A stretch of 64,000 nucleotides of DNA. It comes from Myxococcales bacterium 68-20. Its GTDB lineage: Bacteria; Myxococcota_A; Polyangia; Polyangiales; Polyangiaceae. The notes under the pieces are model-generated. The model made no database searches. It was not told the DNA's origin and saw only the letters and a list, made by a program, of their open reading frames with translations. Position 1 is the stretch's first letter; every line of letters starts with the position of its first letter. Position numbers and translations under genes: made by a program. Of this stretch, positions 16,475 through 60,297 are shown one piece after another. Where the stretch lies: the NCBI GenBank assembly GCA_001899635.1, contig MKVQ01000030.1:1-64000 (forward strand), given 5' to 3'.

Positions 16475-16635
16475 CGAAGAGAGCCCGCGTTCGCGTCGAG
16501 CAAGCGCGACACCAGCGCTATTTCGCGCGCAGCTCCCCGATTTCGGTCTCGTGCTATGCGATCCTGCCCCACGATGTGGCGCCGCTGCCGCTCAGGGACG
16601 CCGGCGGCCGCGAAGAGCTCGACGCCGGAAACGGT

Positions 16636-18459: not shown

Positions 18460-18471
18460 CGTCGAGCCTCT

Positions 18472-19902: not shown

Positions 19903-19909
19903 CGCGCGC

Positions 19910-21106: not shown

Positions 21107-22335
21107 CGAGAACCTCCCGCGTCACCGAGCGCGCCACCCGTGTAGTGGAGCGCGACGCCGTCGCCGACGATCCAGACGTCGTCGCGCGCGCTGCCCCAGA
21201 CGCCGTGGAGCGCGGGCTTCTTGCCGGCCGGAAACGCTGCGAGCGTCGTGCTCCAGGTGTGGCCGTCGTAGTGGATGATGGTGCCGGCATCGCCGACCGC
21301 CCAGACGTCGTCGGCCGTCGAGCCCCAGACAGCACGGAGGTGCTCGCGTGTCGGCGACGGGACGACCTCCCAGTCGCTGGCGTTCGCGCTCGTGATGTGA
21401 CGAATCGTGCCCACGTCGCCGACGGCCCAGATGTCGCTCGCCGAGCTGCCCCAGACCGCGCGCAGGGTCACCGCCGAGTGCGTGTCGACCGCAGCCCATT
21501 CGAGCTCGCTCGCATCGGAGGGGAGCGTGCCGTGGAGCGACATCGAGCGTTGCCAGCTCACGTCTGCCGAGTTGTCGGCGACGAGCCAGATGTCGTTCGC
21601 GGCCGAGCCCCACATGCCGAACACGCTCGCTGTCCCCGGCACGCCTTGCCAACCGATGCCTCCGTCGTCGAGGTTCGTCTTGGTGAATGCGTTCACCGTG
21701 ACGACCTCGCCCATCTCGTCGAACATCATCGAAGCGCGCCCGGCGAGGCGGACGTCGGCGGCGGAGGTCCCCCAGATCGCGAAGAGAGGTACGTCGAGGC
21801 CCTCTTCGATGGGCAGCCGCACGTTCTCCCACTCCGTCGCGGCGCCGGCGTAACCGCGCGTGCGGAACACCGCGTCCGTCGCGCTCGCGATCCACACGTC
21901 GTTCGGACCGGTGCCTCGGACCGCGTAGAACGTGTTCTTCACCGGGAGCTTCGGCGGGTAGAAGCTGGTCGGCGTCGGCACCACCGTCCACGCCTTCCCG
22001 TCCCAGTGCACGACCGTCCCGTTCGAGCCAACCGCCCAGACGTCGGTCTTGCTCGATCCCCACACCGACGTGAGCGCCGCAAAAGCGGACACGTTTGTCG
22101 GCACGGGACACCACGGGACTTCGGCGCAGGAGAGAGCAGGAGCGCAGCCCTCGTCCGAGGCATCACATCCGCCCTCTGACGCAGCATCGAGACCGCCAGC
22201 GTCGATGTGGATGGAGGCGTCCTCGTGAGCGATCTCCTGTTTCTCGGTGTCGGCGCAGCTCACGAACGCGACGACCGGAAGGAACAGGGCACCGAGCAGT
22301 GACGCGCGGAGAAGCGTTCGGCCTCGAGAGAGCAT
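21103..22335 (-). CDS. Cluster A: WxG/DVWAVG-repeat lipoprotein 2
   Basis: The protein has 410 residues from the ATG at 22335, which shares a base with the preceding stop (TGATG). A lipobox gives Cys27 (VAFVSCADT). Repeats are very regular: LTSVWGSSKTDVWAVGSNGT, LFAIWGTSAADVRLAGRA, LRAVWGSSASDIWAVGDVGT and LRAVWGSTADDVWAVGDAGT, ending HGVWGSARDDVWIVGDGVA. This is a probable beta-propeller surface lipoprotein. The two propeller genes of the cluster are related to each other as well as to those of cluster B. The ORF is open upstream to 22392, but the signal peptide fixes the start used here. Confidence 0.78.
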   Translation of the reverse strand: MLSRGRTLLRASLLGALFLPVVAFVSCADTEKQEIAHEDASIHIDAGGLDAASEGGCDASDEGCAPALSCAEVPWCPVPTNVSAFAALTSVWGSSKTDVWAVGSNGTVVHWDGKAWTVVPTPTSFYPPKLPVKNTFYAVRGTGPNDVWIASATDAVFRTRGYAGAATEWENVRLPIEEGLDVPLFAIWGTSAADVRLAGRASMMFDEMGEVVTVNAFTKTNLDDGGIGWQGVPGTASVFGMWGSAANDIWLVADNSADVSWQRSMSLHGTLPSDASELEWAAVDTHSAVTLRAVWGSSASDIWAVGDVGTIRHITSANASDWEVVPSPTREHLRAVWGSTADDVWAVGDAGTIIHYDGHTWSTTLAAFPAGKKPALHGVWGSARDDVWIVGDGVALHYTGGALGDAGGSR

Positions 22336-23561
22336 CAGTTGACCTTCCCGGCGTCGCTGCATTCGGTCATCAGGCACTTGCCATGGATGCACGGCTGCCC
22401 AGCGTTGAGGTCACAGGCGTTGCCGCACGACCCGCAGTTGCCGGGATGGGCCAGCAAGTTGGTCTCGCAACCGTCGGACGGATCGCCGTTGCAGTCGCCA
22501 AAGCCCGGAAGGCAGTCGAGCTCGCATAGCCCTTTGCGACACGCTCGAACCTGATTCGGGCCGGCTTCGGGGCACACGTTCGTGCAGGCTCCACACGCCG
22601 TCGGATCGTTGAGGAAGTCACGGCACCCGAGCAGCGGGCAGAACGTCATCCCCTTCCCGACGCACTGAACGGCACAGTAGGAGCCACCCTGCCCGTTGAT
22701 GCACTTCTCGCCCGCTTCGGTATCGCACTTGATCCCGCAGCCACCGCAGTTGTTCGGGTCGAAGTTGATGTCCTCGACCTCGCAGCCGTCGGAGTTGCAC
22801 TCCGGATCCCCGAGGTCCTTGTTGCAATCACCCCTCGAGCCCCGGCACTTGGGAGCGCCGCAGACGCCGCCAGCGCATCCGTAATAGGCAGTCTCCGGTA
22901 GGGTGCACGGCCCCTCGGTCTGCTCGCACGTGATCCCGCAGCCGCCACAGTTCCAGTCGTCGCCCAGAGGATCGGTGCACATGCCGTCGCAGACGATCTG
23001 CCCCGGCGGGCACCCGCATTTGCCCTCGATGCACGGCGCGCCGTTCGCGCACACGTTCCCGCACGCACCGCAGTTCTTGTCGTCCGAGTTGACGTCGACC
23101 TCGCAGCCGTCGTCGACCTTCCCGTTGCAGTTGCGCCATTCCCCGCCGTCGCCGGGGATCTTCGGGCTCCAGCATTCGAGCTCGCAGCCGCCTTCGATGC
23201 AGCGCGAGGTCATGTGAAGGCGACCGTAGTGGCGACACTTGTTCCCGCACGCGCCGCAATGATCGACGTCGCGCTTCAGGTCCGTGCCGCACTTGTACGC
23301 AGGCCCGCCCCCGCTCGCGCAGGTCCCGAAGCCTTCGGGGCACGTCGTGCCGACGCACAAGAGGAGACTCGCCGCGTCCGGCGCGACGCTCGGCGCTTCG
23401 CCGTCGGGTTGCTCGAAGATCCCTCCCCGACCGGCATCGTCTAGGAAGATGACGCTGTCCACGGGCGACGTGCACGACGTGACGAGGATCACGCTTCCCG
23501 CCAACGCCGACGCCGCGAGAGCGATCTTGCGCGCCGAAACCAGATTGATCGCCTTCATCAT
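22335..23561 (-). CDS. Cluster A: Cys-rich Stig1-like repeat lipoprotein
   Basis: The protein has 408 residues. A lipobox gives Cys30 (VILVTSCTSP). The mature part is made of six or seven Cys-rich units of the type NCGACGNVCANGAPCIEGKC and NCGGCGITCEQTEGPC, separated by segments such as DGCEVDVNSDDKN and CNGDPSDGCETNLLAHPGN. This is the pattern often annotated as Stig1-like in myxobacteria. The many paired Cys imply disulphide-stabilised export. The ATG overlaps the stop of the upstream anti-sigma candidate (ATGA). Its paralogue is at 55115-56392. Confidence 0.82.
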   Translation of the reverse strand: MMKAINLVSARKIALAASALAGSVILVTSCTSPVDSVIFLDDAGRGGIFEQPDGEAPSVAPDAASLLLCVGTTCPEGFGTCASGGGPAYKCGTDLKRDVDHCGACGNKCRHYGRLHMTSRCIEGGCELECWSPKIPGDGGEWRNCNGKVDDGCEVDVNSDDKNCGACGNVCANGAPCIEGKCGCPPGQIVCDGMCTDPLGDDWNCGGCGITCEQTEGPCTLPETAYYGCAGGVCGAPKCRGSRGDCNKDLGDPECNSDGCEVEDINFDPNNCGGCGIKCDTEAGEKCINGQGGSYCAVQCVGKGMTFCPLLGCRDFLNDPTACGACTNVCPEAGPNQVRACRKGLCELDCLPGFGDCNGDPSDGCETNLLAHPGNCGSCGNACDLNAGQPCIHGKCLMTECSDAGKVN

Positions 23562-24307
23562 GGCGTCGCCGTCTTCTGTGCAGCAGCCTTCGTCACGAGT
23601 GAGCGCACGCGGTTCGCGTACGGGCTGTCGGGGCTGCGGGTGAGGAACGCTTCACCGAGCGCGCGCGCCCGAGCCGCTTCCCCGCGTGCGAGCAGCGCTT
23701 CGATGCGCATGACGGCGACCTCGCGCTCGAAGACACCGGCGCGAACCCGCCGATCGTATTCGTCGAGCTGAGAAAGGCAGCCCGCGGCGTCGCCCGTCGC
23801 GAGCGACGTCCGTGCGGCCTCGACGAGGGCAAGCTCGTCGTCGAACGATGCTGGCGTCGCGTTCGTGCTCGCAGCCGTCGTCGGGCGAGCACGCGGCGCC
23901 AGCTTCTCCGCCAGCGGCGTCGCCGTCGGGAGCTCGTCGACACGCATCGTCTTCGCCTCGACGGGCGCCGGCGCCGCCCGCGACACGACCTCGTCGACCG
24001 TCGCCGGTGCGGCCACCGAGGATGTCGGACCAGCCGCGCCGGAGCTCGAATGATGCAAGTACCATCCGGCGCCGATCGCCATCGCGAGCGCGACGAAGGC
24101 TCCCGCCTTCAGCGAGAACATCGATCGCCCGACCTGCACCGAGGCGCCGGGGTCGAATTTGGAGCCTCTCGTAGCGTCGAACCGCGCGAGAGCGCGCTGC
24201 ATGCGCGCCTCCGCAGGCTCGTAGCTCTTGGCGACCTCGAGGGCGTCGACGAGGCGCGCGTCGGTCGAGGACTCACTCAAGCGAGGCGGGAAGGTCGGCT
24301 CTTTCAT
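23558..24307 (-). CDS. Cluster A: one-pass membrane protein, candidate anti-sigma factor
   Basis: The protein has 249 residues. The ATG at 24307 overlaps the sigma gene stop. A cytoplasmic N-terminus of about 64 residues includes DALEVAKSYEPAEARMQRAL, followed by one membrane helix at about 65-86 (SLKAGAFVALAMAIGAGWYL). The periplasmic part is Pro/Ala-rich and ends in a TPR-like helical domain (ELALVEAARTSLATGDAAGC, RIEALLARGEAARARALGEA, SPYANRVRSLVTKAA). There is no HxxxCxxC zinc anti-sigma motif. The anti-sigma role is inferred from position and topology. The positional paralogue at 56432-57262 has the same layout. Confidence 0.7.
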   Translation of the reverse strand: MKEPTFPPRLSESSTDARLVDALEVAKSYEPAEARMQRALARFDATRGSKFDPGASVQVGRSMFSLKAGAFVALAMAIGAGWYLHHSSSGAAGPTSSVAAPATVDEVVSRAAPAPVEAKTMRVDELPTATPLAEKLAPRARPTTAASTNATPASFDDELALVEAARTSLATGDAAGCLSQLDEYDRRVRAGVFEREVAVMRIEALLARGEAARARALGEAFLTRSPDSPYANRVRSLVTKAAAQKTATP

Positions 24308-24948
24308 CGGGTATCTCGACCAAACGGGGGGGCATTCGCATCTGCGCGTGCGAGCGCCTCGCGGAAATCCTCTCGTGCTTTGCGGAGCCGTGAGGCCACC
24401 GTTCCGGGAGGGATTCCGAGATGCTCGGCGATCTCGCGCCCGCTGAGCTCCTCGAGCTCGTAGAGCACGAAGACCTCGCGACGTTCGGGGTCCATGCTCT
24501 CGAGGATCCTCTGGATCATCGCGAGCGTCTGCTTGCGCTCGAAAGCGTCCGCTGGATCCGCATCGGGCGACAGCGGAGCCTCCTCGAGCTCCTCGAGCGT
24601 GGTGTTCCGGACAGCGTGACGGTTTCGGCGGCGCCCGACTTCTCGGGCGACGTTCACGCAGACCGCGCAGGTGTAGGCCCGCAGCTCTGCTCGGTTCGGG
24701 ATCTCGTCGAACTTCCGATCCGCGGCGATGAGAACGGCCTGCAGTGCGTCGTCGATCTCGGCGTTCTGCACGCCCAGACGCTGGAGGACGCGGAAGGCGA
24801 CCTTGACCAGCGGTTCGATGGCCGCGCGAAATCTGGCGTGACGCGTGGCGATGTCGCCCTCCCGCGCCTCGACCCCGCCGATCGCCGCAACACACTCCAC
24901 ACTACTGGAGCGGTCCGGCCGCCCCGTTTGATCACGAGGGGGCCACAT
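24304..24948 (-). CDS. Cluster A: ECF-type sigma factor
   Basis: The protein has up to 214 residues. Region 2 is seen in LVKVAFRVLQRLGVQNAEID and ALQAVLIAADRKFDEIPNRA. Region 4 is clear: MDPERREVFVLYELEELSGR followed by the helix-turn-helix IAEHLGIPPGTVASRLRKAR. The annotated ATG at 24948 may be too early, because the GTG at 24900 (VECVAAIGG) aligns better with cluster B. The stop overlaps the anti-sigma candidate. A 73-bp gap to the OMP gene upstream contains TGATCA, also found upstream of the cluster B sigma gene. It probably directs transcription of its own cluster; that is inference. Confidence 0.88.
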   Translation of the reverse strand: MWPPRDQTGRPDRSSSVECVAAIGGVEAREGDIATRHARFRAAIEPLVKVAFRVLQRLGVQNAEIDDALQAVLIAADRKFDEIPNRAELRAYTCAVCVNVAREVGRRRNRHAVRNTTLEELEEAPLSPDADPADAFERKQTLAMIQRILESMDPERREVFVLYELEELSGREIAEHLGIPPGTVASRLRKAREDFREALARADANAPPFGRDTR

Positions 24949-25021
24949 TTATCGCTCGACCGTCACGGCTCCTCGAGCTCAGGCATTGGACAGCGTCTCG
25001 GCCGCGCGCCCGCCTCGCGGA

Positions 25022-26137
25022 TCAGAACCGCCACTCGACCAGCAAGCCCCCCGTGATTCCGACCGGCGGCGCCTGCGAGACGACCCCGCCTTCGACGAAC
25101 GCAAAGCGATGGCGCACGAACGGGGCGGAGACGAGGATCGTCGCCCCGACGCCCACGGATTGACCGATCCGGTAGACCACTCGACCTGATCCGCCCACGT
25201 CGAACCAGGCGCTCGACACCCTGCGTGCGGCCGGCGTCGTCCGGGCCTCCGCTTGGAGAACCCCCGCATTGGCTTCGGCACAGGGAACGGCATCGAGTCG
25301 ACCCGACGCGAAGCGGAAGCGCACCGGACAGAGTCGAAACATAGCCGTGGTCCACGAGAACTCCGAGCTCCCGAAGGGCGCATCCACGACGACGGGAAAG
25401 CTCTGCCTCACGCCCACTGCCAAGGACGGGGCGAGCCATTCCGGGACGCCCGGCGGAGCCGCACGCACGTCGACGGCAGCTCCAACCACCGGTGCAACGT
25501 CCCGGACGACCGCAGACGTGACCTCCCCCCGCGCTTCGAGCGCAAACGTCAGCACCGGACGCCGCGCGCCGGATGGTGCGCCGACCTTCCCCCTCGCCTT
25601 CTCCTTTTCGTTCTCCGTCCTCCGCTCCGTGGCCTTCTCCTTCCCCGCGTCCTCGGGACGAGCTGGTGGAAGCGGCGGATGCTCAGGCTCGCTCGCCACA
25701 TCGAGCGCCTCGGGCTCGGGAGCCGTCTTGGGAGGCACCTCGGAGATGTTCGCCTCCGGATCGATCGCCAGCGCCATGGCGATGGCCAGCCCGCGAGCGA
25801 CGCGCTCGCAGTCCGGTGCCACGATCTCGCGCTGGGTCACTTCTCCGTTCGGCGTCTCGATGACGAGCACACCGCGATGCTCCGCACCGCGTCGTCCGAG
25901 CACGACGCGAAAGCTCCGGACGCTCGAGCTCGAGTCGACGACTTGCCACTTCGTCGTGTACCTCCTCACGTTCCCGATGAAGCGCTCCTCGGAGGGGCAG
26001 GACTCCTGCGCAGCGTACGCGACGGAAACGCGCTCCGCCTCGGGCTCTCCCGCGCGCGCGCGGAGCGGCATCGACGCAAGGCAGACCGCGAGAACGAGGG
26101 CAGCCGTCGTGGCGCACACTCTGTGAAATCGCGGCAT
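25022..26137 (-). CDS. Cluster A: outer-membrane beta-barrel protein
   Basis: The protein has 371 residues. A signal peptide is cleaved near ARA-GEP (about residue 29). The N-terminal domain has ESCPSEERFIGNVRRYT and DCERVARGLAIAMALAIDPE. A Lys/Glu/Pro-rich linker follows at about 140-190. The C-terminal half alternates hydrophobic and polar residues and ends VGITGGLLVEWRF, with the terminal Phe usual in outer-membrane barrels. It is probably the first gene of cluster A. The paralogue at 57949-59052 keeps the CPSEE motif, the linker and the barrel. Its cargo or ligand is unknown. Confidence 0.72.
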   Translation of the reverse strand: MPRFHRVCATTAALVLAVCLASMPLRARAGEPEAERVSVAYAAQESCPSEERFIGNVRRYTTKWQVVDSSSSVRSFRVVLGRRGAEHRGVLVIETPNGEVTQREIVAPDCERVARGLAIAMALAIDPEANISEVPPKTAPEPEALDVASEPEHPPLPPARPEDAGKEKATERRTENEKEKARGKVGAPSGARRPVLTFALEARGEVTSAVVRDVAPVVGAAVDVRAAPPGVPEWLAPSLAVGVRQSFPVVVDAPFGSSEFSWTTAMFRLCPVRFRFASGRLDAVPCAEANAGVLQAEARTTPAARRVSSAWFDVGGSGRVVYRIGQSVGVGATILVSAPFVRHRFAFVEGGVVSQAPPVGITGGLLVEWRF

Positions 26138-26325
26138 TCCTCGCCCCGAGCTAACGGCCTACTCCCGAGCAGGTCAAGCTCGAAGGGGCGCAGCGGGTCG
26201 CGCTTGCGGCCGGCTCGGGTCATCCGCGCGCCGCGCGTCACGCTATCCTCGATGGACGGCGCGCGCAGACGACCGTCGCGAGCACGAACGTACCGGGAGG
26301 CGCCGCGCGGACGCCCCCGACCGAG

Positions 26326-27375
26326 CTAGCCGAGCTTCGCCTTGCCCTGGCTCGCGAGCGTGAACCCGACGAGCTTGTAGAGGAGGCGCGCGCCGACGTT
26401 GCCGTCCCACTCGTCGTCCTCGTTCGCGAGATTCGGCGCGACCTCGTTGAGGTCGAAGCCCACGATCTTCTTCCCCGCGCGCACGACCTCGCGAATGATC
26501 GCGATCGCCTCCGCGAGCTCGAGACCGCCCGGCACCGGCGTACCGGTGTGCGGGCAATAGCGCGGATCGAGTCCGTCGATGTCGAACGAGATCCAGACGA
26601 GGTTCGGGAGGGAGGCGGCGATCTCGCGCGCGACCTTCGCGAACGGCTCGCCCTCCTGCTTCCGGAGCGCGAGGCTGCGGTCGTAGAAGACCTCGACGCG
26701 GGCGCCCTGCGACTCGCAGTAGCGGACCTCCGCCTCGCAGACGTCGCGGATGCCGACCTGGACGAGCTTCTCGACCTCGGGCACGCCCTCGAGGACGTTG
26801 TGCATGATCGAGGCATGCGAGTGCGCGAACCCCTCGTAGGCATCGCGCGTGTCGGAGTGCGCGTCGAAGTGAAGGACGCCGAACGGACGCTTCAGGTGCT
26901 GGGCCATCGCGCGGAGCGCGCCATAAGGCACCGAGTGATCGCCGCCGACGACGCCGACGATCTTGTTCGCGGTGAGGAGCCGCGCCACCTCGCGCTCGAC
27001 GTGCGAGTTGACCTGCTTCGACAGGGCGTTGACACGCCCGAGTGCCGCGAGGAGCTCCGGATCGTCTCCCGCGCCGCCGTGCTCGATGACCTTCTCGGCG
27101 GAGGCCTTCCCTTCCTCGTTCCACGCCATGACCTCGGACGGCAGCGGGAGCATGTGGATGCCGTGCTGGTAGGGTCGATCGACGTCGAGGTCGAAGAGAT
27201 CGACCTGCATGCTCGCGTCGAGGATCGCCCGCGGGCCCTCGGCCGCGCCGCCGCCATACGAGGTCGTCGCCTCCCACGGGACCGGAACGAGGACGACGAG
27301 CGACTCCTCCTCGGAGTGAGGCAAACCGAAGATTCCCGAGCCCGGCTGCGCAGGCGCGTTCGGATCGAAGGACAT
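26326..27375 (-). CDS. Agmatinase/arginase-family ureohydrolase
   Basis: The protein has 349 residues and no signal peptide. All three binuclear manganese motifs are present: GGDHS at 144-148, DAHSD at 171-175 and SFDIDGLDP at 263-271. AHSHASIMHNVLEG and GTPVPGGLELAEA also fit the agmatinase-like branch. The known reaction of the family is hydrolysis of a guanidino compound (agmatine, guanidinobutyrate or similar) to an amine and urea; substrate choice cannot be settled here. The neighbours do not form a polyamine pathway. It is divergent from the CE2 esterase gene, with 156 bp between the starts. Confidence 0.9.
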   Translation of the reverse strand: MSFDPNAPAQPGSGIFGLPHSEEESLVVLVPVPWEATTSYGGGAAEGPRAILDASMQVDLFDLDVDRPYQHGIHMLPLPSEVMAWNEEGKASAEKVIEHGGAGDDPELLAALGRVNALSKQVNSHVEREVARLLTANKIVGVVGGDHSVPYGALRAMAQHLKRPFGVLHFDAHSDTRDAYEGFAHSHASIMHNVLEGVPEVEKLVQVGIRDVCEAEVRYCESQGARVEVFYDRSLALRKQEGEPFAKVAREIAASLPNLVWISFDIDGLDPRYCPHTGTPVPGGLELAEAIAIIREVVRAGKKIVGFDLNEVAPNLANEDDEWDGNVGARLLYKLVGFTLASQGKAKLG

Positions 27376-27531
27376 GGGCCCTCAGTATCACACCGCGAAG
27401 CGGCCGGGCCGCGCGCGTGGGCCGAGGGAGCTCGTCAATGCTGGAGACCGAGGGGCATCGCCCGCACCCACCGACAATCGGCGCCGCCGATTTTCACACG
27501 GGCGCGGACATCGGTACGCTCGACCTGGTCG

Positions 27532-28680
27532 ATGCGCCGCCCTCTCGCCAGCACGCTGACGTTCGCCGCCTTGGTGGTGGTGTCCGCCTGCACGCGCAAG
27601 GCCCCCCCCGCGACCGACTCGCCCTCGGGTCCGGCCGTCGTGCCGGCAGCAGCCGCGGCGACCGGCGCCGGTGGCCGCGTGCCGGCCGCCGCGGAGAGCA
27701 CGGCGCCGCGCTTCGTCGGTCGCTGGATCCCCGACGGTGACCGCGGAATGCGCTGCGCCTGGTCGGGCAGCTACGTCATCGGTCGCTTCAAGGGCACCGG
27801 CGTCTCGGCCCGCATCAAGGACGAGGGCAACAACCTGTTCCAGGTCGTCATCGACGGCGAGACGAAGAAGGTGCTGCGCACGGACAAGGCCAAGGGCGAG
27901 CACGTCTACCAGCTGGCGGACGGCCTCCCCGACGCGGTCCACGAGGTCTCGCTCCATCGGCGCACCGAGGCAAAGGTCGGCGAGGCCGTCTTCTACGGCT
28001 TCGAGCCCAAGGACGGCACGCTCCTCGCGTCGCCCCCGCCGCTCGAACGGCGCATCGAGATCGTCGGCGACTCGATCTCGACGGGCTACGGCAACGAGGG
28101 GCCCAGCGCCACGTGCGGCTACGTGAACAGCGAGCAGAACGAATACGCGACGTACGGTGCGATCGCCGCTCGCAATCTGAACGCGGATCACACGACGATC
28201 GCGTGGTCCGGCAAGACACTCCACGAGATGAAGGGCTTCTTCGACAAGGCGCTTCCGCAGCGCTCCGATGGCCCGCGCTGGGACTTCACGCAGTACGAGC
28301 CGCAGGTGGTCGTCGTGAACGTCGGCACGAACAACTTCGCCAACATCGATCCCGGCGAGGCACGATTCGTGCGGCTCTATCACGAGCTGATTCACGTCGT
28401 CCGGGAGGCTTACCCGAAGGCGTTCATCGTTTGCGCGCTCGGATCGATGCTGAGCAACGTCTACCCCGAAGGTCGGAACAGCCTGACGCAGGCGCGGAAG
28501 TACATGAAGGTGGCGGTCGCGAAGCTGAAGGAAGCGGGCGACTCGAACCTCGACTTCCTGGAGTTCCCCGAGCAGAAGCACGCCGACGGGCTCGGCTGCG
28601 GGTTTCACCCGAGTCTCAAGACGCACAAGCTCATGGGCGAGCGTCTGACCACGTTCATCAAGGAGCGCATGGGATGGTGA
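27532..28680 (+). CDS. CE2-type SGNH esterase lipoprotein
   Basis: The protein has 382 residues from the ATG at 27532. A lipobox gives Cys20 (LVVVSACTR). After a Pro/Ala linker, residues about 60-165 form a jelly-roll-type N-terminal domain (RFVGRWIPDGDRGMRCAWSG). The SGNH hydrolase domain then starts with IEIVGDSISTGYGNEGP, with the nucleophile at Ser181, continues with VVVNVGTNNFANIDPGEA, and ends with the catalytic His region GLGCGFHPSLKTHKLMGE. This two-domain layout matches carbohydrate esterase family 2, known to deacetylate polysaccharides. The next gene starts inside its last codons, so the two are probably co-expressed. Confidence 0.88.
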   Translation: MRRPLASTLTFAALVVVSACTRKAPPATDSPSGPAVVPAAAAATGAGGRVPAAAESTAPRFVGRWIPDGDRGMRCAWSGSYVIGRFKGTGVSARIKDEGNNLFQVVIDGETKKVLRTDKAKGEHVYQLADGLPDAVHEVSLHRRTEAKVGEAVFYGFEPKDGTLLASPPPLERRIEIVGDSISTGYGNEGPSATCGYVNSEQNEYATYGAIAARNLNADHTTIAWSGKTLHEMKGFFDKALPQRSDGPRWDFTQYEPQVVVVNVGTNNFANIDPGEARFVRLYHELIHVVREAYPKAFIVCALGSMLSNVYPEGRNSLTQARKYMKVAVAKLKEAGDSNLDFLEFPEQKHADGLGCGFHPSLKTHKLMGERLTTFIKERMGW

Positions 28681-30185
28681 GGGCAGTAGAGCTCGGGTCG
28701 ATGCGTGCCGCCCTCGGTTGTGCGGTCTTCGCGCTGCTGGCCTCATGCTCCCCGAAGACGGGCACGCCACAGAGCGCGCGTGACGGGTCACCCGACGGCG
28801 CAGGCGCGACGGTATCGAGCACGCCCTCGGCCGATCTCGACACGGCGGGCGACGCCGGCGCTCCGATCGAGAAGGCGGCGAACACGAACGACGACGCTCC
28901 TCAGGACGTCGCCACCTACCTGAAGAGCAAGCTCCCGAAGGGCGGCAGCGTCGAAGGCGACCCGCCGAAGCTCAAACACGAGGTGCAGCCGGGCCAGTCG
29001 ATCGCGGCGATCGCGGCGGCCTACCTCGAGCTCACCGAGGTCTATCGCGTCGAGGAGCTCGCCAAGGCGATCGGCAAGAGCAATGCGAACGTGTCGCCCG
29101 GTGCGACGATCACGATCCCGCGACCGCTCACGCGCGTGCCCTCCGCCGATCCGAAGAACGACCGGCTCGGATGGCCCGAAGACAAGATCCTCCGCGGCGT
29201 CTTCGTCACCGGCTCGTACGCCGGCATCCGCTGGGCCGAGACCGTGGAGAAGGTCGCCGACCACGGGCTCAACGCCATCGTCCTCGATGCAAAGGACTAC
29301 GAGGGCTACGTCAACTACCCGTCGAAGGCGAAGATCGCCGTCGAGAGCGGCGCGATCCGAGCGAAGAACATCCCCGATCTCGCGCGCGCGATCCGCTACG
29401 CGCACTGGCACGGCGTCCGCGTCATCCTCCGCATCCCCTGCTTCCACGACCCGTGGGCCGACAAGCGCCTGCCGGGATCGCGCCTTTCGCTCCGATACAC
29501 GCCGACCGGCAAACCGATCCACGTCGACTGGATCGATCCTACGAACATCGAGGCGCAGGACTACGCCATCGAGCTCGCGAAGGAGGGCGTGGAGGCCGGC
29601 GCCGACGAGATCCAGCTCGACTACGTCCGCTTCCCCGTTCACCTCCCGATGCGGGTCGCGATGCTGCCCGATCCGAGCGAGCGCTCGAAGATCATCCGTG
29701 ACTTCGTCAAGCGCGTGCGCGCAGTGACGCAGGCGGCCGGCGCGTACCTCTCGCTCGACTTCTTCGGCGTGGCCGCGACCGGCGAGCGCTACGACATCGA
29801 TCGCCTCGGGCAAGACATTGCCACGGTCGCACCGGAGGCAGACGCGATCAGCCTGATGACGTATCCCTCGCACTACGGCAAGGGCTACATGGGCTTCAAG
29901 AACCCGGCCGATCATCCCGAGATCATCGGCATCGGCAACAAGATGGCGCTCGCCCAGCTCAAGCCGACGGGCGCGAAGACGATCTTCCGCACCTGGCTAC
30001 AGGCATTCCCGCTCGGGGTGACGCGCTACAACTCGCAATACCTCCTCGCGCAGGCCAAGTCGGCCGAGACGTCCGGCGGCCACGGCTGGCTGATGTGGAG
30101 CCCCGGGTGCGAGTACAGCCAGGTCTGGAACGGCTGGCCGAGCCAGAAGAAGGCGCAAGCGAACGCACAGGCGAGCGCGAAGTAG
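28674..30185 (+). CDS. LysM-containing putative glycoside hydrolase (DUF4015) lipoprotein
   Basis: The protein has 503 residues from the ATG at 28674, which lies 7 bp after AAGGAG and overlaps the esterase stop. The ATG at 28701 (MRAALGCAVFALLASC) gives a more typical lipoprotein signal. A LysM-like module spans about residues 100-160 (KHEVQPGQSIAAIAAAYLEL, NVSPGATITIPRP). The rest is a TIM-barrel-like DUF4015 domain: GVFVTGSYAGIRW, LNAIVLDAKDYEGYVNYPS, ADEIQLDYVRFP, LSLDFFGVAAT and AISLMTYPSHYGKGY. Acidic residues at strand ends suit a glycosidase. A role on cell-wall or exopolysaccharide with the esterase is inferred from the pairing. Confidence 0.82.
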   Translation: MVRAVELGSMRAALGCAVFALLASCSPKTGTPQSARDGSPDGAGATVSSTPSADLDTAGDAGAPIEKAANTNDDAPQDVATYLKSKLPKGGSVEGDPPKLKHEVQPGQSIAAIAAAYLELTEVYRVEELAKAIGKSNANVSPGATITIPRPLTRVPSADPKNDRLGWPEDKILRGVFVTGSYAGIRWAETVEKVADHGLNAIVLDAKDYEGYVNYPSKAKIAVESGAIRAKNIPDLARAIRYAHWHGVRVILRIPCFHDPWADKRLPGSRLSLRYTPTGKPIHVDWIDPTNIEAQDYAIELAKEGVEAGADEIQLDYVRFPVHLPMRVAMLPDPSERSKIIRDFVKRVRAVTQAAGAYLSLDFFGVAATGERYDIDRLGQDIATVAPEADAISLMTYPSHYGKGYMGFKNPADHPEIIGIGNKMALAQLKPTGAKTIFRTWLQAFPLGVTRYNSQYLLAQAKSAETSGGHGWLMWSPGCEYSQVWNGWPSQKKAQANAQASAK

Positions 30186-36075: not shown

Positions 36076-36976
36076 ATGTTTGCTCGTCGCTCTCTTCGGA
36101 TCGCCCTCAGCGCTCTCGTCGTCGGCCTCGCGGCGTCGACGGGTGCGTGCGCGGATGTCTCGACCGATGACGAGGCGACCGAGGAGGGCGAGGACGACCT
36201 CACCAGCGAGACCGCGCGCTCGCGGACCCTCGAGTTCGTCGGCACCGTCTTCGTCGAGCCGGGCACGAGCGACCAGGCGCTCCTCCAGACCGTCCGCACG
36301 CAGGCGCAGACCGCGTTCGGTCCGCTGCGCACCGCCGAGATGGCTGCTTCTGGACCTCGCGCGCGTCCTGATAGGAGAGCCCGAGGCTCGAGCCGCCCGT
36401 CTTCAGGCGGACGAGGTCGGCGAACGATTCGCCGACCGCGTCTACAAGAAGTGGGTCGCCGTCGAGAAGCCGATCCGCGTGAAGGTCGGCAACGAGTCGC
36501 CGCGCGACTTCGCCATCCAGATCCTCTTCTACTTCGGCGCCGACTCGAGCTCGGCACCGCACAAGTTCGCGACGAAGAACTCCGACGTCTTCATCTACAA
36601 CGGCCACTCGAGCATCGGGTATGGCCCGCTCGATCCGCGCAACTTCACCTCCGCGGACTTCCCGTCGAGCTACCAGATCATGTGGATGGATGGCTGTGCA
36701 TCCTACAACTACTATCACAAGGACTACATCCCGCTGAAGGAAGGCGGGACGAAGAACCTCGACCTCGTCACCAACGGCCTCGAGGCGCCCGCGTGGCGCG
36801 GCGGCACGGCGAACGGGAAGTTCCTCGTCGCGCTCCTCAGCGGCGGGACCTCCAGCTACAAGGACCTCCTCCTCGCGGCGCGCGACACCGAGGCGATGCG
36901 CGTCGTCGACGGCGAGCTCGACAACGTCTACAAACCCACGAAGGCGTCGACGCGGGTGACGATCACCAATCGCTGA
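36076..36976 (+). pseudogene. Lipoprotein gene broken by a short internal inversion and frameshift
   Basis: The gene begins at ATG 36076 with a lipoprotein signal (AASTGACADVS) and reads well to about ...FGPLRTAEM near 36340. From about 36425 a different frame reads well to a stop at 36976: FADRVYKKWVAVEKPIRVKV, NSDVFIYNGHSSIGYGPLDP, YQIMWMDGCASYNYYHKDYI and EGGTKNLDLVTNGLEAPAWR. Between them the good coding frame is on the opposite strand (FADLVRLKTGGSSLGLSYQD). So an internal segment is reversed, and other sequence may be missing. The intact protein may be a secreted caspase-like or peptidase-type fold, but I cannot name it. Confidence 0.7.
36344..36424. other. Short inverted segment within the broken lipoprotein gene
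   Basis: The complement of this 81-bp stretch reads FADLVRLKTGGSSLGLSYQD and AREVQKQ, with nearly all codons ending in G or C. The forward frame here lacks that bias. The right edge coincides with a perfect 10-bp inverted repeat, GGTCGGCGAA/TTCGCCGACC, at 36415-36437. Confidence 0.7.
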
Positions 36977-37101
36977 CGGCCACGACCTGACGAGGAGGGG
37001 ACGGGGTCGACTCGGCGCCGGCCCGCCCCGCCCGCGCCCGCAGGCACGGACGCGGTTCCGGCTTCACCCCTCTCGGCCGACACGATAGAACCCGTGCGGT
37101 C

Positions 37102-38408: not shown

Positions 38409-39575
38409 GTGCAGCGCTGGCTCGTCGTCCTCCTGGCGGGTGCCTGTGCGTCGTGCCGAGCCTGCGGAGGCGCCTCGAGCACGGAGGACGCTGGCACGCA
38501 CACGTCGGCGCGGGTCGACTCCGGCGCGCCTGCCTCGATCGACGTCGAGCCCTTTCGCGCTCGCGCGCGGGTGCCTGCGGTGGGCTGGGCCTCCGTGACC
38601 CGAGACCTCGAGTCGAGCGGCGCGGTGGGCGTGGCCGACGTGGAGCGCTCCGAGCCGGCGAGCGCGACCACCGCCTTCGAGGCGGCGTCGGTCGCGAAGA
38701 CGATCATCGCGACGTGCGTCATGCAACTCGTCGAAGAGAAGACGCTCGCGCTCGATGCCGACGTGTCTTCGTACGTCGGGTTCCCCGTCCGTCACCCTCG
38801 TCTGCCGGCACCGATCACGCTGCGCCGTCTCCTCACCCACACCGCGTCGATCGCGGACCGTGAGGAGACTCGTGCGGCCGGAGACGTCGCGCTCGGCGAC
38901 TTCCTCGCCGGATACTTCGCGGACGCCGGCAGTCGCGGCACGTTCCTCGACGCCGCGCCGGGCACCTCGATGAGCTACTCGAACGTCGGTCCGTCGCTCG
39001 CGGCGCTCGCCGTCGAGCGCGTCACCGGCGTGCGCTTCGCCGACCGCGCACGCGCACGGGTGTTCGAGCCGCTCGGCATGAGGACGACCGCGTTCGGCGT
39101 CGATGCCCTCCCTCCCGGTGCACGTGTCGCCGCTCCGTACGCTGCGCGTGGGTCGAGCTTCGTCCGCCTCCCGGCTCCGTCACACGCGCTCTATCCGGTC
39201 GTCGACCTGTTCTCGACGCCACGCGACCTCGCTCGCTTCGCGCGCGCGATGCTCCGCGACGGCGAGCTCGACGGGGTGCGGGTCCTCGCGCGCGCGAGCG
39301 TCGACGAGATGCTGCGCGTGCAGCTGCCCGACGCCGCGCCGGACGACGCGCTCGGCTGGCAGGTGCGCTCGTTCGGTGGCCGGCGCGTCGTGGGCCACGA
39401 GGGCGAGGACGCCGGCGCATCGACGGGCCTCTACCTCGACCGTGCGTCCGGCACCGGCGCGATCGTCCTCGCGAACGGCGACGCGTTCCAGGGCGAGGAC
39501 GAAGCGCGCGCCGCGGCGCTCGGCGAGCTCGTGGAGCGGCTGCTCACCGTCCAGCGGGCTTCATCGGGACCGTGA
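38409..39575 (+). CDS. Serine beta-lactamase/PBP-fold hydrolase, lipoprotein
   Basis: The protein has 388 residues from the GTG at 38409. The signal peptide has a Cys-rich lipobox region (VVLLAGACASCRACGG). The class C beta-lactamase/DD-peptidase fold is shown by the nucleophile motif SVAKT (SxxK), the YSN motif in MSYSNVGPSLAAL and a C-terminal HEG (VVGHEGEDAGASTGLYL) in place of KTG. LRRLLTHTASIAD is also typical of the family. It is an exported esterase or peptidase; true beta-lactamase activity is not implied. It is 19 bp upstream of the beta-CASP nuclease gene. Confidence 0.9.
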   Translation: MQRWLVVLLAGACASCRACGGASSTEDAGTHTSARVDSGAPASIDVEPFRARARVPAVGWASVTRDLESSGAVGVADVERSEPASATTAFEAASVAKTIIATCVMQLVEEKTLALDADVSSYVGFPVRHPRLPAPITLRRLLTHTASIADREETRAAGDVALGDFLAGYFADAGSRGTFLDAAPGTSMSYSNVGPSLAALAVERVTGVRFADRARARVFEPLGMRTTAFGVDALPPGARVAAPYAARGSSFVRLPAPSHALYPVVDLFSTPRDLARFARAMLRDGELDGVRVLARASVDEMLRVQLPDAAPDDALGWQVRSFGGRRVVGHEGEDAGASTGLYLDRASGTGAIVLANGDAFQGEDEARAAALGELVERLLTVQRASSGP

Positions 39576-39594
39576 AAGCGAATAGGTTGGTGGG

Positions 39595-41013
39595 ATGTTC
39601 ATCGAGTTCGTCGGGGCCGCCCAGACGGTCACCGGATCGAAGCACCTGATCAGGACGAAGCACGCCAACGTGCTCCTCGACTGCGGCATGTTCCAGGGGC
39701 GGCGCAAGGAAGCGAACCGGCTGAACCAGGAGCTCGGCGTCGACGCTCCCTCGCTCGATGCCGTCATCCTCTCGCACGCCCACATCGATCACTCCGGCGC
39801 GCTCCCTCTCCTCGTGCGGCAAGGTTTCGACGGGCCGATCTACACGACGCCCGCGACCCGCGACCTGTGCGCCGTCATGCTCGAAGACGCCGCCATGATC
39901 CAGGCGAACGACGCGCGCTTCATCAACAAGACGATCGCGCGCGACAGGGCGTCGGGGCTCGATCCCGTCGAGCCGCTCTTCAGCGTCGAGGACGTGCTCC
40001 GCGTGCTCGAGCGAATGATCGCCGTGCCGTATCGGCGAACGGCGGAGGTTGCCCCGGGCGTCCGCGTCACCTTCTACGACGCAGGGCACGTCCTCGGCAG
40101 CGCGATCTCCGCGATCGACGTCGAGGAGTCGCCCGGCAGCGGCGGCAAGACGAAGCGCGTCGTGTTCACGGGCGACCTCGGCCGGAAGAACATGCCGATC
40201 CTCAAGGATCCGGAGATCGTCGAGGGCGCCCATGCGCTCCTCACTGAGAGCACCTACGGCGACCGTCTCCACAAGCCGATCGCCGCGATGGAAGACGACC
40301 TCGCGAGCGTGCTCGAGCGCACCTACCAGCGCGGAGGCAAGGTCGTCATCCCGTCGTTCGCCCTCGAGCGCGCGCAGGAGCTCCTCTACGCCATCAACGA
40401 GCTCAAGCGTCGCGGACGGATGCCGAAGATGCCGGTCTACGTCGACTCCCCGCTCACCGTGAAGATCACCGACATCTTCCGGATCCATCCGGAGTGCTAC
40501 GACGCCGAGACCCGCGCCCTCATCCGCGAGAACCGCTCGCCGTTCGACTTCGAAGAGCTCCGCTACGTCTCCGACAAGGAAGAGAGCATCGCGATCGACG
40601 CGTCACCCGAGCCGTGCGTCATCATCTCGGCGAGCGGAATGTGCGAAGCGGGGCGGGTCGTCCACCACCTCAAGGCGACGATCGAGGATCCGAAGAACAC
40701 GGTCTGCATCGTCGGCTTCCAGGCAGCGCACACGCTCGGCCGCCGGATCGTGGAGCGCCGTCCGCGCGTGAAGATCTTCGGCGTCGAGCGCGATCTCCGA
40801 GCGGAGGTCGTCATCATGAACGGCTTCTCCGCGCACGCCGACCAGCGCGACCTCGTCCAATACGCCGGCGAGCTGAAGGAGCGCGGCCCGCTCGGTCGGA
40901 TCGCCCTCGTCCACGGCGAGGAGACCCCGCAGAAGGCCCTCATCGCGAAGATGAAGGAGAACGGCCTCGACGACGCGGTCGCCCCCGGGCCGGGGGACGT
41001 CATCGAAATCTGA
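39595..41013 (+). CDS. Beta-CASP metallo-beta-lactamase RNase
   Basis: The protein has 472 residues, starting at ATG 39595 with MFIEFVGAAQTVTGSKHLI. The metal-binding motif HAHIDHSG is at residues 61-68. Further motifs are FYDAGHVLGSAISAIDVEE, VFTGDLGRKNMPIL, SASGMCEAGRVVHHLK and GFSAHADQRDLV. This is the bacterial branch of the YSH1/CPSF73-like family, often annotated as exonuclease of the beta-lactamase fold. It is cytoplasmic. The acid and His residues needed for catalysis appear intact. The gene is in a rightward run with the MFS and beta-lactamase-fold genes. Confidence 0.93.
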   Translation: MFIEFVGAAQTVTGSKHLIRTKHANVLLDCGMFQGRRKEANRLNQELGVDAPSLDAVILSHAHIDHSGALPLLVRQGFDGPIYTTPATRDLCAVMLEDAAMIQANDARFINKTIARDRASGLDPVEPLFSVEDVLRVLERMIAVPYRRTAEVAPGVRVTFYDAGHVLGSAISAIDVEESPGSGGKTKRVVFTGDLGRKNMPILKDPEIVEGAHALLTESTYGDRLHKPIAAMEDDLASVLERTYQRGGKVVIPSFALERAQELLYAINELKRRGRMPKMPVYVDSPLTVKITDIFRIHPECYDAETRALIRENRSPFDFEELRYVSDKEESIAIDASPEPCVIISASGMCEAGRVVHHLKATIEDPKNTVCIVGFQAAHTLGRRIVERRPRVKIFGVERDLRAEVVIMNGFSAHADQRDLVQYAGELKERGPLGRIALVHGEETPQKALIAKMKENGLDDAVAPGPGDVIEI

Positions 41014-41031
41014 TCGGCACTCGGCGCGAGC

Positions 41032-41904
41032 TTAGTCGTCGAGGTACTCGTCGACCTGCAGGGCGAGAGCGGAAGCGCCGTCGCGGCGGCAGGAGGCGAG
41101 CGCCCCGGCGACCGCGGCGGGGCGCATGCCGCGAAGGTAGCCAGCGTCCGTGAGCGTCGCGCAGACCTCATGCGTCGCGGTGATGGCCGCCGCGATGCGG
41201 GCCTCGGCGTCGGCGCGAACTTGGTTGGGATCGCGGCCGCCGTACGTCCTGGTGATGCGCTCGACGATCAGGTCGATGCGTCCGGTGAGTGCGTTCTCGA
41301 TACAGGTGGCGTGGCCGGCGACGGCATCGGCAATGGCAGTCTCGTCGTTGCCGGCTGCGGTTCGATCGTCCTCGAAGGCCCTGTCACACGCGTACGAAAA
41401 CGCGTCGAACGACACCCTTGCCGGGCCTCCGCCGAGGTCTGCGTACACGGCGATGAGCTCGCCGAGCGTGTTCTCTCGCGAACGATGGCAGCCGGCAAGG
41501 GAGGCATCGGCGAGGTAGCTCGTCCCGACGGAATGCGCGTCGAGCATGAACGCGCAGATGGCGTTGGCATCGCGGTAGGTGCCGAAGGTCGATGCCCCCG
41601 TTCCGGCACGCGCCGAGCCCGACTGCACGAGCACGCGCTCGATGCGTTTGAGCGCCTTGGTGTTCGCGCGCTTGACGCACGCGGTCCCCTTCTTGGCTTC
41701 GACCGGTGCATCGTCGACGTTGGTCAACGACTGCAGAGCCTCGTTGGAATCGGCGATGCACTTGCGGATCGTCGAGAGGTGGCTCTCGCTCGAGAGAGCG
41801 GCGCTGTCCTCGTCAGCGTCTTCCTCTGCCGTTGCAGCGCATCCCGCGCTCACGAAAGCCAACGCACAGGCCCCGAGCAGCGTCTGCAGGTGTCGTCCGA
41901 CCAT
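41032..41904 (-). CDS. Hypothetical lipoprotein
   Basis: The ATG at 41904 gives 290 residues; the frame extends upstream without coding character. A lipobox gives Cys at SAGCAAT (about residue 22), then an Asp/Glu-rich spacer. The rest is mostly helical, with several Cys (IRKCIADSNEALQSL, ANAICAFMLDAHSVG, YACDRAFEDD, GHATCIENAL, HEVCATLTDA) that may form disulphides. No family is recognised. It converges with the beta-CASP nuclease gene, leaving only an 18-bp gap. Confidence 0.7.
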   Translation of the reverse strand: MVGRHLQTLLGACALAFVSAGCAATAEEDADEDSAALSSESHLSTIRKCIADSNEALQSLTNVDDAPVEAKKGTACVKRANTKALKRIERVLVQSGSARAGTGASTFGTYRDANAICAFMLDAHSVGTSYLADASLAGCHRSRENTLGELIAVYADLGGGPARVSFDAFSYACDRAFEDDRTAAGNDETAIADAVAGHATCIENALTGRIDLIVERITRTYGGRDPNQVRADAEARIAAAITATHEVCATLTDAGYLRGMRPAAVAGALASCRRDGASALALQVDEYLDD

Positions 41905-42153
41905 GGGGAGGCGATGAGCACTGAGCGTGCCATGCCGCCGACCGCGATGAATCCGTTGTAAAACCGCGTGGTAACCAACCGTAAGGAGCGCGCCGTCGGG
42001 CCGGAATGGGTGGATCGATCCGTAGGCCCCCCGGATCGGATGTAAGCCAATGTGGACCGCCAGTTCTCTCTGCGATGGCTCGTCGAGCGGCGAGATCATG
42101 CGCAGCGTCGAGGCGACCTGCTGAAAAGCGAGGGCTCGGAGGCGCGCAGCGGA

Positions 42154-48321: not shown

Positions 48322-49410
48322 GGTGACTCCCGCTTGCTCCGAGTCTACTCGATGAGACCGCCACACGCCTCTGTCGACGCACGGCCTCACACTCGACTCT
48401 ATAAGCCATAGCCCGAACATCCAGTGCGCGCTGCGTGGCAAAGTTCGTCGCTCCGAGGTGATGTCGCAATCAGCCCCGTCCCCGGCGGGTCAGCCTCTTG
48501 CTCCTCGCTCGTTGCCCCTTGAACCACGTCGCCGGCGCACCGAGCACGAGCCCTTGGCGACGCGCGGGAGGTCTCCGGCGTCGTCAGCTCGACCTTCACG
48601 CGCGCGATCGCCAAGTCGAGGAGCTTCACGTGACCTCGTCGTCGCGGCGAGCGAGGAACAGGTTCGCGGGCCCGATTGCCGCGGTGAACGATGTCCGCTC
48701 CGTGTGCGCGCATGAGCCCGACGCCCGCTTGCGCAGCGACCTACGCGCGACGCCCGGAGACTCATCCCGAGCTGCCCTTCGCCTGGGACCTCCCAGCATG
48801 ACGCCCGACGACGCTGCTCGATCCGTCCTGACATCGTTGCGCGGTCGTCGAGCCAAGCCGGACGAACGTGCTCCTAGAGCCAGCCATTCCCGACTCGAAC
48901 GCGATCTCTTCCTGAGCGCACCGGAGCTCGCCACCGGCAGCGCCTTCGGCCTCGAAGGGGAAGCCGCGCGGTACGCGGGAGCGCTGGCTTCGACGAGCCC
49001 CCCCTTCGGGTGTCACGAAGCGCGACAAGCTCCGCTCGCGCATCGTCCCCGAGCCGCCCTTGTCGGAAGCGCACGCAACGCGCCCGAGCGTCGCCGAGGA
49101 GGAGCCAGAGCCGCGCCCCCTTCGCTGTCGCTGTCGCTATCGCCCATCGGCCGAGCTCATGATGCGGACGTTCGCGCTCGACGTTCTCTGCTGTCCGCGT
49201 CGCTCTGGACGACTACGCCTCGTCGCGCTCATGACCGAGCCAAGGAGACGGTGAAGGCGTCTTCCCGAGAGCGGCATCGCCCCGACGATGCCACAGCTCG
49301 CCTGCGGCTGGTGGATCGGATGCGCTGCTCCGCGCGGGCGTCGTCGCTCGACGCGCGGACGGCCTCGGGCCCGAGGGGATCGGGAGCCGAGGCCGAGCGC
49401 GCCGTGCGGG
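48322..49410. other. Non-genic stretch holding a decayed kinase gene
   Basis: No intact gene was found in this 1.1 kb. The 48430-48990 part carries kinase remnants on the minus strand. The rest, 48991-49410, has short frames without coding character. Confidence 0.6.
48430..48990 (-). pseudogene. Decayed Ser/Thr protein kinase
   Basis: Fragments in different frames line up with a kinase domain in the right order: EVPGEGQLGMSLRAS (like MELLEGESLxxxLRA), then GVGLMRAHGADIVHRGN (like the HRDxKPxN catalytic loop, with Asp changed to Gly), ANLFLARRDDEVT, VKLLDLAIARVKVE (like VKLLDFGIAR) and LGAPATWFKGQRARSKRL (like LGTPxYMSPEQARG). At least two frameshifts separate them and key residues are lost. 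N-lobe remnants further upstream are weak. This is a dead gene on the same strand as cluster B. Confidence 0.7.
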
Positions 49411-51204
49411 TCAGTTGACGGTGAGCGGCGTGGTCACAAGCTTCCGGATCGCCATGCCGCCGGGATAGGCGTAGCTCGCGGCGACGCCCCAGCCCCAGAT
49501 CGTCGCGGTGAATTCGCCCTCGCTGCGCATGCGCTGAAGGCCCGTGATGCAGCGCTTGTCTCCAAACGTGTCGCCCGGGCCGAAGTCGCGCGACAGGTCC
49601 ACGCGGCGGTACTCGTAGTCGCCCTTCGTATCGATCGCCTTCCAGTCCGGCAGGTCGCCGGCGCACTCGAGCCACACGTCCTTGAACTCACCACGGTGAC
49701 GCTTTCGGACGATGACGAGCGAATTCTCGGGGTAGGTCGAGTCGGCGTAGAAGCTGTACGAGTTTCGGTATTGCCCCGCGGGCACGACGTTGACGAACTC
49801 TGGATCGCCCATCGATCCGTGGCGCGGCTCCGTGGGGGAACCGCCGCCGCCGCTCATGTGCATCGCGAGGTAAAACGGGTGCTTGGCGCCGTGCGAGCGA
49901 ACGACGAACGGTTCGCTCGCGCGCGCGCGAAAGAGCACGAACTCGCCGGCGGAGAGCGTGAGCGGCGCACCGGGGGGCTTGACGGGATCGTACGCGAGCT
50001 CGGTGCCGTCCCGCGCGCCGACGATCCGGTACCAGACGATCTCCTCACCGTCCTTGATCCGCGGGCGGTAGGCGGCGGCGACGTACTCCGTTCCCCACTG
50101 CTCGAAGGGCGGAATCTGCTGCGCGAGCGTATCGCAAGCGGTGGCCGTGTTCGCGATGTTCGCGCAGTCGTTGCCGCCGAGCGTCACCGTGGGCTTGTTC
50201 GAGAAGACGAAGCTGCCGGTGAGCTCCTCGGTCTGATGAAGTTGCGCGAACTGTCCCTTCTGGAGCTTGATCTTCGCGGGTTGCCCGGCCGCGGCACCGG
50301 CGAAGCCGTCGCCGTTCAGGATGTCCTTTCGGCCAAGGAGCGTGATCTCGGTGTCGTCTTCAGCCGCGTAGATCTGCGTGATCGGGCGTCCGTTGAGGCC
50401 CTTCTCCCAGCCGTTGACGACCACGTGCTCCCTCGCCCAAGCGCTCACTGGCAATACGAGCGTCGCCGAGGGGACGAAGCTCGCCGCGCCACCGTACGGG
50501 TACATCGACGTGACGCCGACGGGGACGTTGCTGGTCATACGGAACGCGCCGGCGATCCTGGAGCCGTAGATCCCGAAGTCTTGCTCGACGGCCGCCGTCA
50601 CGGCGCGTGGGCAGCCGATGTAGTTGAGCTTCTCGTTGAGCGTGCGCGCTTTGGTCTGATCCCGATCGGAGACGAAGACGATCGCGCTCTCTCCGGGTGC
50701 GATCGGACCGTCGAGGAGCTCGAGGTCGGTGCTGTTCGGGACGGCTCGGAAGAGCGAGTGAGACAGATCGAGCGCCACGCCCTCGCGCTCGAGCGTCACC
50801 GTGGCTGGCTGGTTCGACGTGTTGACGACAAACGCTGCGTGGCACGACTGCGGATACGACGCGGTGAAGCGGGGGGCGGAGAAGTAGAAGTCGCAGCCGT
50901 CCGAGCTTCGATCCGCGGCCGCGGCGTCGCAGGGCTTCTGGCACTTGGCGGCGCCGCACGCCAGATCGTCGGCGCACTTCTCAACCTCCGCGCCGGTGCA
51001 CGAGTCGACGACTGAGCGTCCGTCGAGCGAGCATTGCGTGTAACACGTCTCTGCATCGGGGCCGGCGTCGGCGACGGGCACGAGCTCCTCGGGACCGTGC
51101 GTGAAGTCCTCGCGATCGCCGCTGCACGCGCCGGTCGTGGACGCGATGAGGCCGAGGCCGAGCACGACGCCGATGGCGCCCACGGAATAGCGCGCGCCGT
51201 TCAT
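49411..51204 (-). CDS. Cluster B: IgGFc-binding-domain lipoprotein
   Basis: The protein has 597 residues from ATG 51204, which overlaps the RCC1 gene stop (ATGA). A lipobox gives Cys27 (STTGACSGD). A Cys-rich segment follows (ETCYTQCSLDGRSVVDSCTG). The IgGFc-type domain has SMYPYGGAASFVPSATLVLP, VSAWAREHVVVNGWEK, VFSNKPTVTLGGNDCANI and IPPFEQWGTEYVAAAY, matching the cluster A paralogue motif by motif. It closes with ASYAYPGGMAIRKLV, equivalent to ASYGYAGGMASRPV in A. It is the last gene of cluster B. The ligand is unknown. Confidence 0.82.
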   Translation of the reverse strand: MNGARYSVGAIGVVLGLGLIASTTGACSGDREDFTHGPEELVPVADAGPDAETCYTQCSLDGRSVVDSCTGAEVEKCADDLACGAAKCQKPCDAAAADRSSDGCDFYFSAPRFTASYPQSCHAAFVVNTSNQPATVTLEREGVALDLSHSLFRAVPNSTDLELLDGPIAPGESAIVFVSDRDQTKARTLNEKLNYIGCPRAVTAAVEQDFGIYGSRIAGAFRMTSNVPVGVTSMYPYGGAASFVPSATLVLPVSAWAREHVVVNGWEKGLNGRPITQIYAAEDDTEITLLGRKDILNGDGFAGAAAGQPAKIKLQKGQFAQLHQTEELTGSFVFSNKPTVTLGGNDCANIANTATACDTLAQQIPPFEQWGTEYVAAAYRPRIKDGEEIVWYRIVGARDGTELAYDPVKPPGAPLTLSAGEFVLFRARASEPFVVRSHGAKHPFYLAMHMSGGGGSPTEPRHGSMGDPEFVNVVPAGQYRNSYSFYADSTYPENSLVIVRKRHRGEFKDVWLECAGDLPDWKAIDTKGDYEYRRVDLSRDFGPGDTFGDKRCITGLQRMRSEGEFTATIWGWGVAASYAYPGGMAIRKLVTTPLTVN

Positions 51205-56392: not shown

Positions 56393-56431
56393 GACCTTGA
56401 ACCTCGTGTCGCGTTCGCGTTCGACCGAACG

Positions 56432-57945: not shown

Positions 57946-57948
57946 TGG

Positions 57949-59052: not shown

Positions 59053-59365
59053 GCCCGACTCGTCATGCCCACACGATGAAAGTTACCTCAGTGCGGGTGC
59101 CCGGTCCTCTGCGAACGCGCCTCGCGCGACGTGTTTGGAGGGCGCGCAGGCGGAGTCGGCCTGCGAGATGAAGCTGGGCCGTGGGTGATGTGCGCCCCCT
59201 GTCTAGAACGTGCGATTCCCCACCGTCTGGCTGCACACCCATGGGTCCTTCGCGCGCCAGGGGTCTACGTCTCCGAGAAGGCCGGCAAGCTGATCCCGGC
59301 CGACGTCCAGGGCCGCGCACGGTTTTTCGCCCGCGCGTCGGGCGCGCTCGTGCTTCAACTTGGAT
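59053..59365. other. Divergent intergenic region, 313 bp
   Basis: It lies between the start of cluster B and the start of the CxxCH lipoprotein gene, so it should hold both promoters. I saw no clear repeat, terminator or small gene in it. Confidence 0.5.
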
Positions 59366-60136: not shown

Positions 60137-60297
60137 GGGGACATGCGGTGCGACGGGGCGATCTCGTCCACGGAAAGCTGAAGAGCACCGCGCCACTGAA
60201 CTGGGGCGGTCGCGCTCCACAGCCTTCGAGCGCGACGATTCGTACGCCGACGCCGCTCACCAGAGCGTTGGCGCTCGCGCGACCTACGAGCGGCACT

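Follow-up and report, generated by a model that had tools for sequence, protein, structure and literature searches.

An 84-bp segment lying reversed beside a 700-bp gap in a lipoprotein gene, probably the mark of a one-step inversion-deletion

The stretch of DNA analysed here, called the window, spans 64 kb from the start of a 331,764-bp contig (C30) in a draft genome of 11.9 Mb and 52 contigs. It holds a gene that begins with a lipoprotein-type signal and then changes its reading twice, so that three stretches with different reading directions or frames lie end to end (Table 1). The GC content at codon position 3 peaks in its own phase in each of them, at 0.89 in 36076-36343, at 0.96 in the reverse reading of 36344-36427 and at 0.95 in 36428-36973. 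This pattern had been proposed in the original prediction as a coding bias that runs forward, moves to the opposite strand and comes back in another forward frame, and it is borne out by BLASTN against the nearest relative found, the Labilithrix MAG ACE_MYX7. There the intact orthologue, which is also the closest one, has 533 codons (locus L032, gene at L032:3948-5546, on contig JAHBWC010000087.1, which is contig C169 of genome G096), and over the three pieces its DNA differs from that of the window by 7-16%. Window base 36344 aligns with L032 base 4216, the stretch 36344-36427 with 5000-4917 on the minus strand, and base 36428 with 5001. The right arm thus restarts exactly one base past the original end of the flipped piece (L032 5000/5001), and the order of the points on L032 is 4216, 4917, 5000, 5001. 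The three-phase gene with its internal inversion is a real feature of the sequence, and the inverted segment, earlier given as 81 bp, measures 84 bp in the L032 alignment.

Table 1. Parts of the broken gene in the window, and matches to end-joining proteins elsewhere in the same genome
Feature	Position	Strand	Remarks
Left arm	36076..36343	+	Start codon, lipoprotein-type signal, codons 1-89; aligns with L032 3948-4216
Junction 1, left arm/flipped piece	36343..36344		700 bp missing; 1 bp (C) overlap
Flipped piece, 84 bp	36344..36427	-	Orthologue codons 324-351; 88% identity to L032 5000-4917 minus
Junction 2, flipped piece/right arm	36427..36428		No base in common
Hairpin, 10 bp with 3-bp loop, spanning junction 2	36415..36437		By-product of two FAD words
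Right arm	36428..36973	+	Codons 352-533; 92% DNA identity to L032 5001-5550
Open frame remaining after the break	36076..36990	+	89 native codons, then ~215 out-of-frame
Ku	C5:723681-724238; C9:135011-135502		Over cut-off
LigD_pol	C5:727276-728043; C34:2521-3294; C10:66105-66839		Over cut-off

The flipped piece consists of 28 whole orthologue codons, SFADLVRLKTGGSSLGLSYQDAREVQKQ, and 74 of its 84 bases are identical to L032, where the best of 2000 codon shuffles of the target reached 49. Eight of the differences are synonymous and two are non-synonymous. The right arm is without an internal stop, ending at a stop codon at 36974-36976, and carries the conserved NGHS and DGC.S motifs, which are now out of frame with the start. 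Comparison with homologues had been named as the way to find the uninverted order and any missing residues, and it gives both. In two further intact orthologues from the same genus (L179 and L180) the order is the original one, with the breakpoints at the same codons as in L032, and in all 23 aligned homologues the segment lies forward, with 226-242 residues between the breakpoints. What is absent from the window gene, to the left of the flipped piece, is L032 4217-4916, i.e. 700 bp or 233 and a third codons. This deletion makes up the larger part of the change and was beyond the reach of the original prediction. When 12 genomes of the genus, its own included, were queried with the window gene, 9 gave some match, and the single full-length match among the 12 is in its own genome. 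In that genome contig C10 also holds a distant match to the right arm (27%).

The intact relatives form a family of lipoproteins in Polyangia that is of separate interest, as it has a predicted caspase-type fold and is unmatched by Pfam and NCBIfam in the members scanned. Homologues are mostly ~520-550 residues long and have a lipoprotein-type N-terminus, in which C25 is invariant in 23 of 23 sequences (alignment A1, 23 rows, with L021 and L028 left out; the first alignment had 26 loci). Several genomes of the same genus have 2-4 family matches each. The C-terminal domain has invariant motifs of the N.GHS and C.S types, with H411 and C441 present in all 23 sequences. In AlphaFold modelling (mean pLDDT 83.0 for the model of the whole protein and 85.0 for that of the domain) H411 comes after a strand at 405-410 and C441 after a strand at 434-440. 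A His and a Cys that each follow a core strand are the defining feature of clan CD, and the intact homologues have both this arrangement and the predicted caspase-type fold. In VIA the best match of the domain is SAVED-CHAT 8tl0 (Z 11.1, rmsd 3.2, 167 residues aligned), and other matches are separase (Z 10.1, rmsd 3.4, 163 aligned), RgpB (Z 9.8, rmsd 3.8, 171 aligned), legumain (Z 8.9, rmsd 3.7, 169 aligned) and caspases up to Z 7.3. Among the matches listed, 49 of 50 are caspase-fold proteins by title, the exception being 8rw5; one VIA match is GPI transamidase chain K, which we take to be a caspase-fold protein. The VIA ranking and the positions of H411 and C441 thus point to a caspase-type (clan CD) fold for the intact domain, with the two residues as its putative catalytic pair. 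With Foldseek neither the whole nor the domain model had a match at E <= 0.001, and GTPases stood near the top of its results. Sequence searches gave little: Pfam nothing above cut-off on the two window arms and three homologues, NCBIfam only single-member matches at E 0.03-0.08 and none above cut-off across 23 members, PADLOC no match for two homologues, and searches of PDB sequences none below E 0.2.

For the window gene, the missing part includes the first strand and helix of the C-terminal domain (model residues 257-265 and 279-295). The loss of 700 bp is not divisible by three, and the right arm no longer shares the reading frame of the start codon. Judged from the sequence, the frameshift would keep the export signal and remove the first part of the caspase-type domain, and the product of the broken gene is very probably non-functional. 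Translocation of the missing part to another place was considered and rejected, as searches of the gene's own genome at both levels came back empty. The missing 700 bp have no DNA match there, in a search that had no positive control, and the missing part has no protein match on any contig. The same protein search was positive in the relatives, where it found the missing part in four of four genomes (G096, G100, G102 and G103) with 2-4 matches each.

At the right junction there is a perfect 10-bp inverted repeat with a 3-bp loop (36415-36424 / 36428-36437), just as had been described. From the word with which FADLVRLK (reversed) and FADRVYKK (forward) both start, the original prediction took its mechanism, namely inversion through inverted homology. 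That part is unsupported. The word TTCGCCGACC is found twice, close to the beginning of the flipped piece when this is read in its coding direction, and where the right arm begins. Both FAD places point the same way in relatives, at a distance of 81 bp in L032 (SFADLVRLK ... KQFAARIDKK); in L180 the same places read SIKDL ... KQFADRVFRKW. No inverted word of at least 6 bp is common to the two edges of the flipped piece when edge stretches of 46 bp are compared. The hairpin is therefore left over from the flip and did not cause it: the flip turned over one word of a direct repeat, and an inverted repeat is what came out. By itself the hairpin, unlike the flip, is unremarkable, as the window holds four perfect stems of at least 10 bp with loops of 3-10, and 10 random nearest-neighbour-matched sequences hold 0-4 each. 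A striking hairpin at a junction can, in other words, be the result of an inversion rather than its cause.

The lack of inverted repeats at the edges also bears on the idea of a programmed intragenic inversion, in which the gene would be a phase-variable switch. Such a switch would look like what is seen here, a short stretch lying inverted within the gene of a predicted surface lipoprotein, and the likeness extends to invertons, which are inverted DNA segments in or near surface genes (PMC11892184). An invertible switch has inverted repeats at both edges of its segment and can be reversed. In the window gene flanking inverted repeats are absent, and turning the 84 bp back would leave the gene still short of 700 bp, which were not found elsewhere. 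A switch driven by inverted repeats was rejected for these reasons, and a programmed inversion of any kind is highly improbable. Microinversions between human and chimpanzee are similar in that a short segment is reversed; those (PMC8755829) are 17-33 nt long, and each lies between perfect or near-perfect inverted repeats, whereas here the segment has 84 bp, no such repeats and an adjoining deletion of 700 bp.

How old the break might be can be judged from the remnants. In the flipped piece and right arm taken together, the window branch has 7 non-synonymous and 17 synonymous changes and the L032 branch has 7 and 16. When L181 and L033 were taken as two outgroups, the count was 6 non-synonymous to 16 synonymous against 7 to 10; the two are identical in sequence, and the final count leaves L181 out. 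The dN/dS between window and L032 comes to 0.06 in the flipped piece and 0.15 in the right arm. An old pseudogene was rejected on the near-equal counts on the two branches. Remnants without extra decay mean either that the event is very young or that it is an assembly or amplification error. Our own arithmetic places the event in about the most recent 13% of the time elapsed since the lineages of window and L032 parted (one-sided 95% bound, Poisson). It uses these counts with 482 non-synonymous and 148 synonymous sites in the flipped piece and right arm, and assumes equal constraint on L032 and on the remainder of the window branch. Two small signs concern lost constraint. In the protein tree (FastTree) the window branch is longer than that of L032 (0.089 vs 0.053), which speaks mildly in favour of some relaxation. 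The window also has an alanine in place of valine at position 442, beside the invariant C441 (window 36698-36703, orthologue codons 441-442), a position that is V or L in 22 of 22 other homologues (19 V, 3 L; V in L032), and this is perhaps an early sign of the same.

The lack of decay is equally what an artefact would leave behind, that is, a chimeric or mis-assembled join in a record whose organism still has the intact gene. The record is after all a draft of 52 contigs, and the chimeras of multiple displacement amplification are mostly inverted sequences with intervening deletions (PMC1855051), which is the combination seen in the window gene. In that source >70% of the chimeric junctions have 2-21 nt of priming homology. 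A chimera of this kind needs one switch, and the window gene has two joins, with 1 and 0 bp in common and an exact abutment. It also has no duplicated bases, and the missing 700 bp were found on no other contig. The related suspicion of a fold-back assembly artefact, raised in the first reading of this DNA, can be dropped: a fold-back copies bases twice, each orthologue position in 4917-5550 is used once here, and the perfect match between the hairpin arms ends after 10 bp, identity over 31 bp being 74%. A chimeric join is not touched by that argument. A screen for further flips covered the C30 sequence that aligned with pieces of G096 at >=78% over >=400 bp; these pieces were taken from queries with window 10001-29900 (3 of 8 loci used), from 3 of 14 other C30 stretches (L066, L070 and L074) and from the whole of G096 contig C169. 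In the 50,911 of 331,764 bases so aligned there is no other flipped segment, so joins of this sort are not widespread in the assembly. With these points on both sides, an artefact is a possible explanation that we find doubtful.

If the break is natural, the deletion and the inversion have a breakpoint in common, and one event is a simpler account than two. It is somewhat probable, going by what the bases of the junctions and the genome content suggest, that the gene is a pseudogene made by a one-step inversion-deletion, for which we prefer end joining by Ku and LigD as the mechanism. In such an event two double-strand breaks would release 784 bp (L032 4217-5000), the excised fragment would lose 700 bp to chewing at its left end, and what was left of it, 84 bp, would be ligated in again in reversed orientation by non-homologous end joining (Ku/LigD). 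With ancestral bases inferred from L032, L179 and L180, the homology is 1 bp (C) at junction 1 and 0 bp at junction 2, which is the little or no homology expected of such joints. The host encodes the proteins that would be needed: Ku is matched twice above the Pfam cut-off, and the LigD polymerase three times above that of NCBIfam. On C5 a Ku match and a LigD match are separated by ~3 kb, and the several matches may mean that end joining is elaborate in the source genome.

Template switching during replication can be made to give the same sequence. Here the growing strand would leave its template at 4216, run back along the other strand from 5000 to 4917 and resume at 5001. The order of these points on the ancestral sequence is that of the type 1-3-2-4 events of the four-point model (PMC7954356), in which the reverse complement of 3-2 takes the place of a larger 1-4 region; as in the window gene, a region is replaced by the reverse complement of a part of itself and the rest is lost. 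The 1-bp overlap at the first switch is a further point for it. The events described there are from great apes and of short range, and here there is a bacterium, a span of 784 bp and an exact abutment at the return. Moreover, under two independent switches it would be a coincidence that the return point is the very base after the landing point, there is no homology at the return, and the edges are without inverted repeats. Template switching is for these reasons rather unlikely. Cutting and religating explains the exact abutment at 5000/5001 without any further coincidence. The sequence fits both mechanisms, and end joining is our preference between the two. The complete version of the end-joining account, in which a natural and young scar was left when Ku and LigD reinserted an excised 84-bp fragment chewed on one side, reversed and with its flanks kept to the base, is offered tentatively, as a possibility below even chances.

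As a kind of mutation the event is ordinary, a complex indel, and its modest interest lies in the clean anatomy, which resembles that of end joining. It would show cleanly what a bacterial inversion-deletion made in one step looks like, and a search of mostly open-access journal literature found no published case from bacteria of precisely this scar. If the end-joining account is true, aligners would read such scars as a deletion plus noise, and if the process is recurrent in myxobacteria, the flipping of fragments by Ku and LigD would steadily supply the genomes of wild bacteria with complex mutations. For the gene itself, the anatomy explains the odd coding pattern, which annotation would either miss as a gene or call as a protein of 304 aa. 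Elsewhere in the window, two stretches (39537-42145, ~2.6 kb, and 48355-60298, ~11.9 kb) lie between blocks colinear with contig C169 of the nearest relative and are without an aligned counterpart there; these are differences in gene content.
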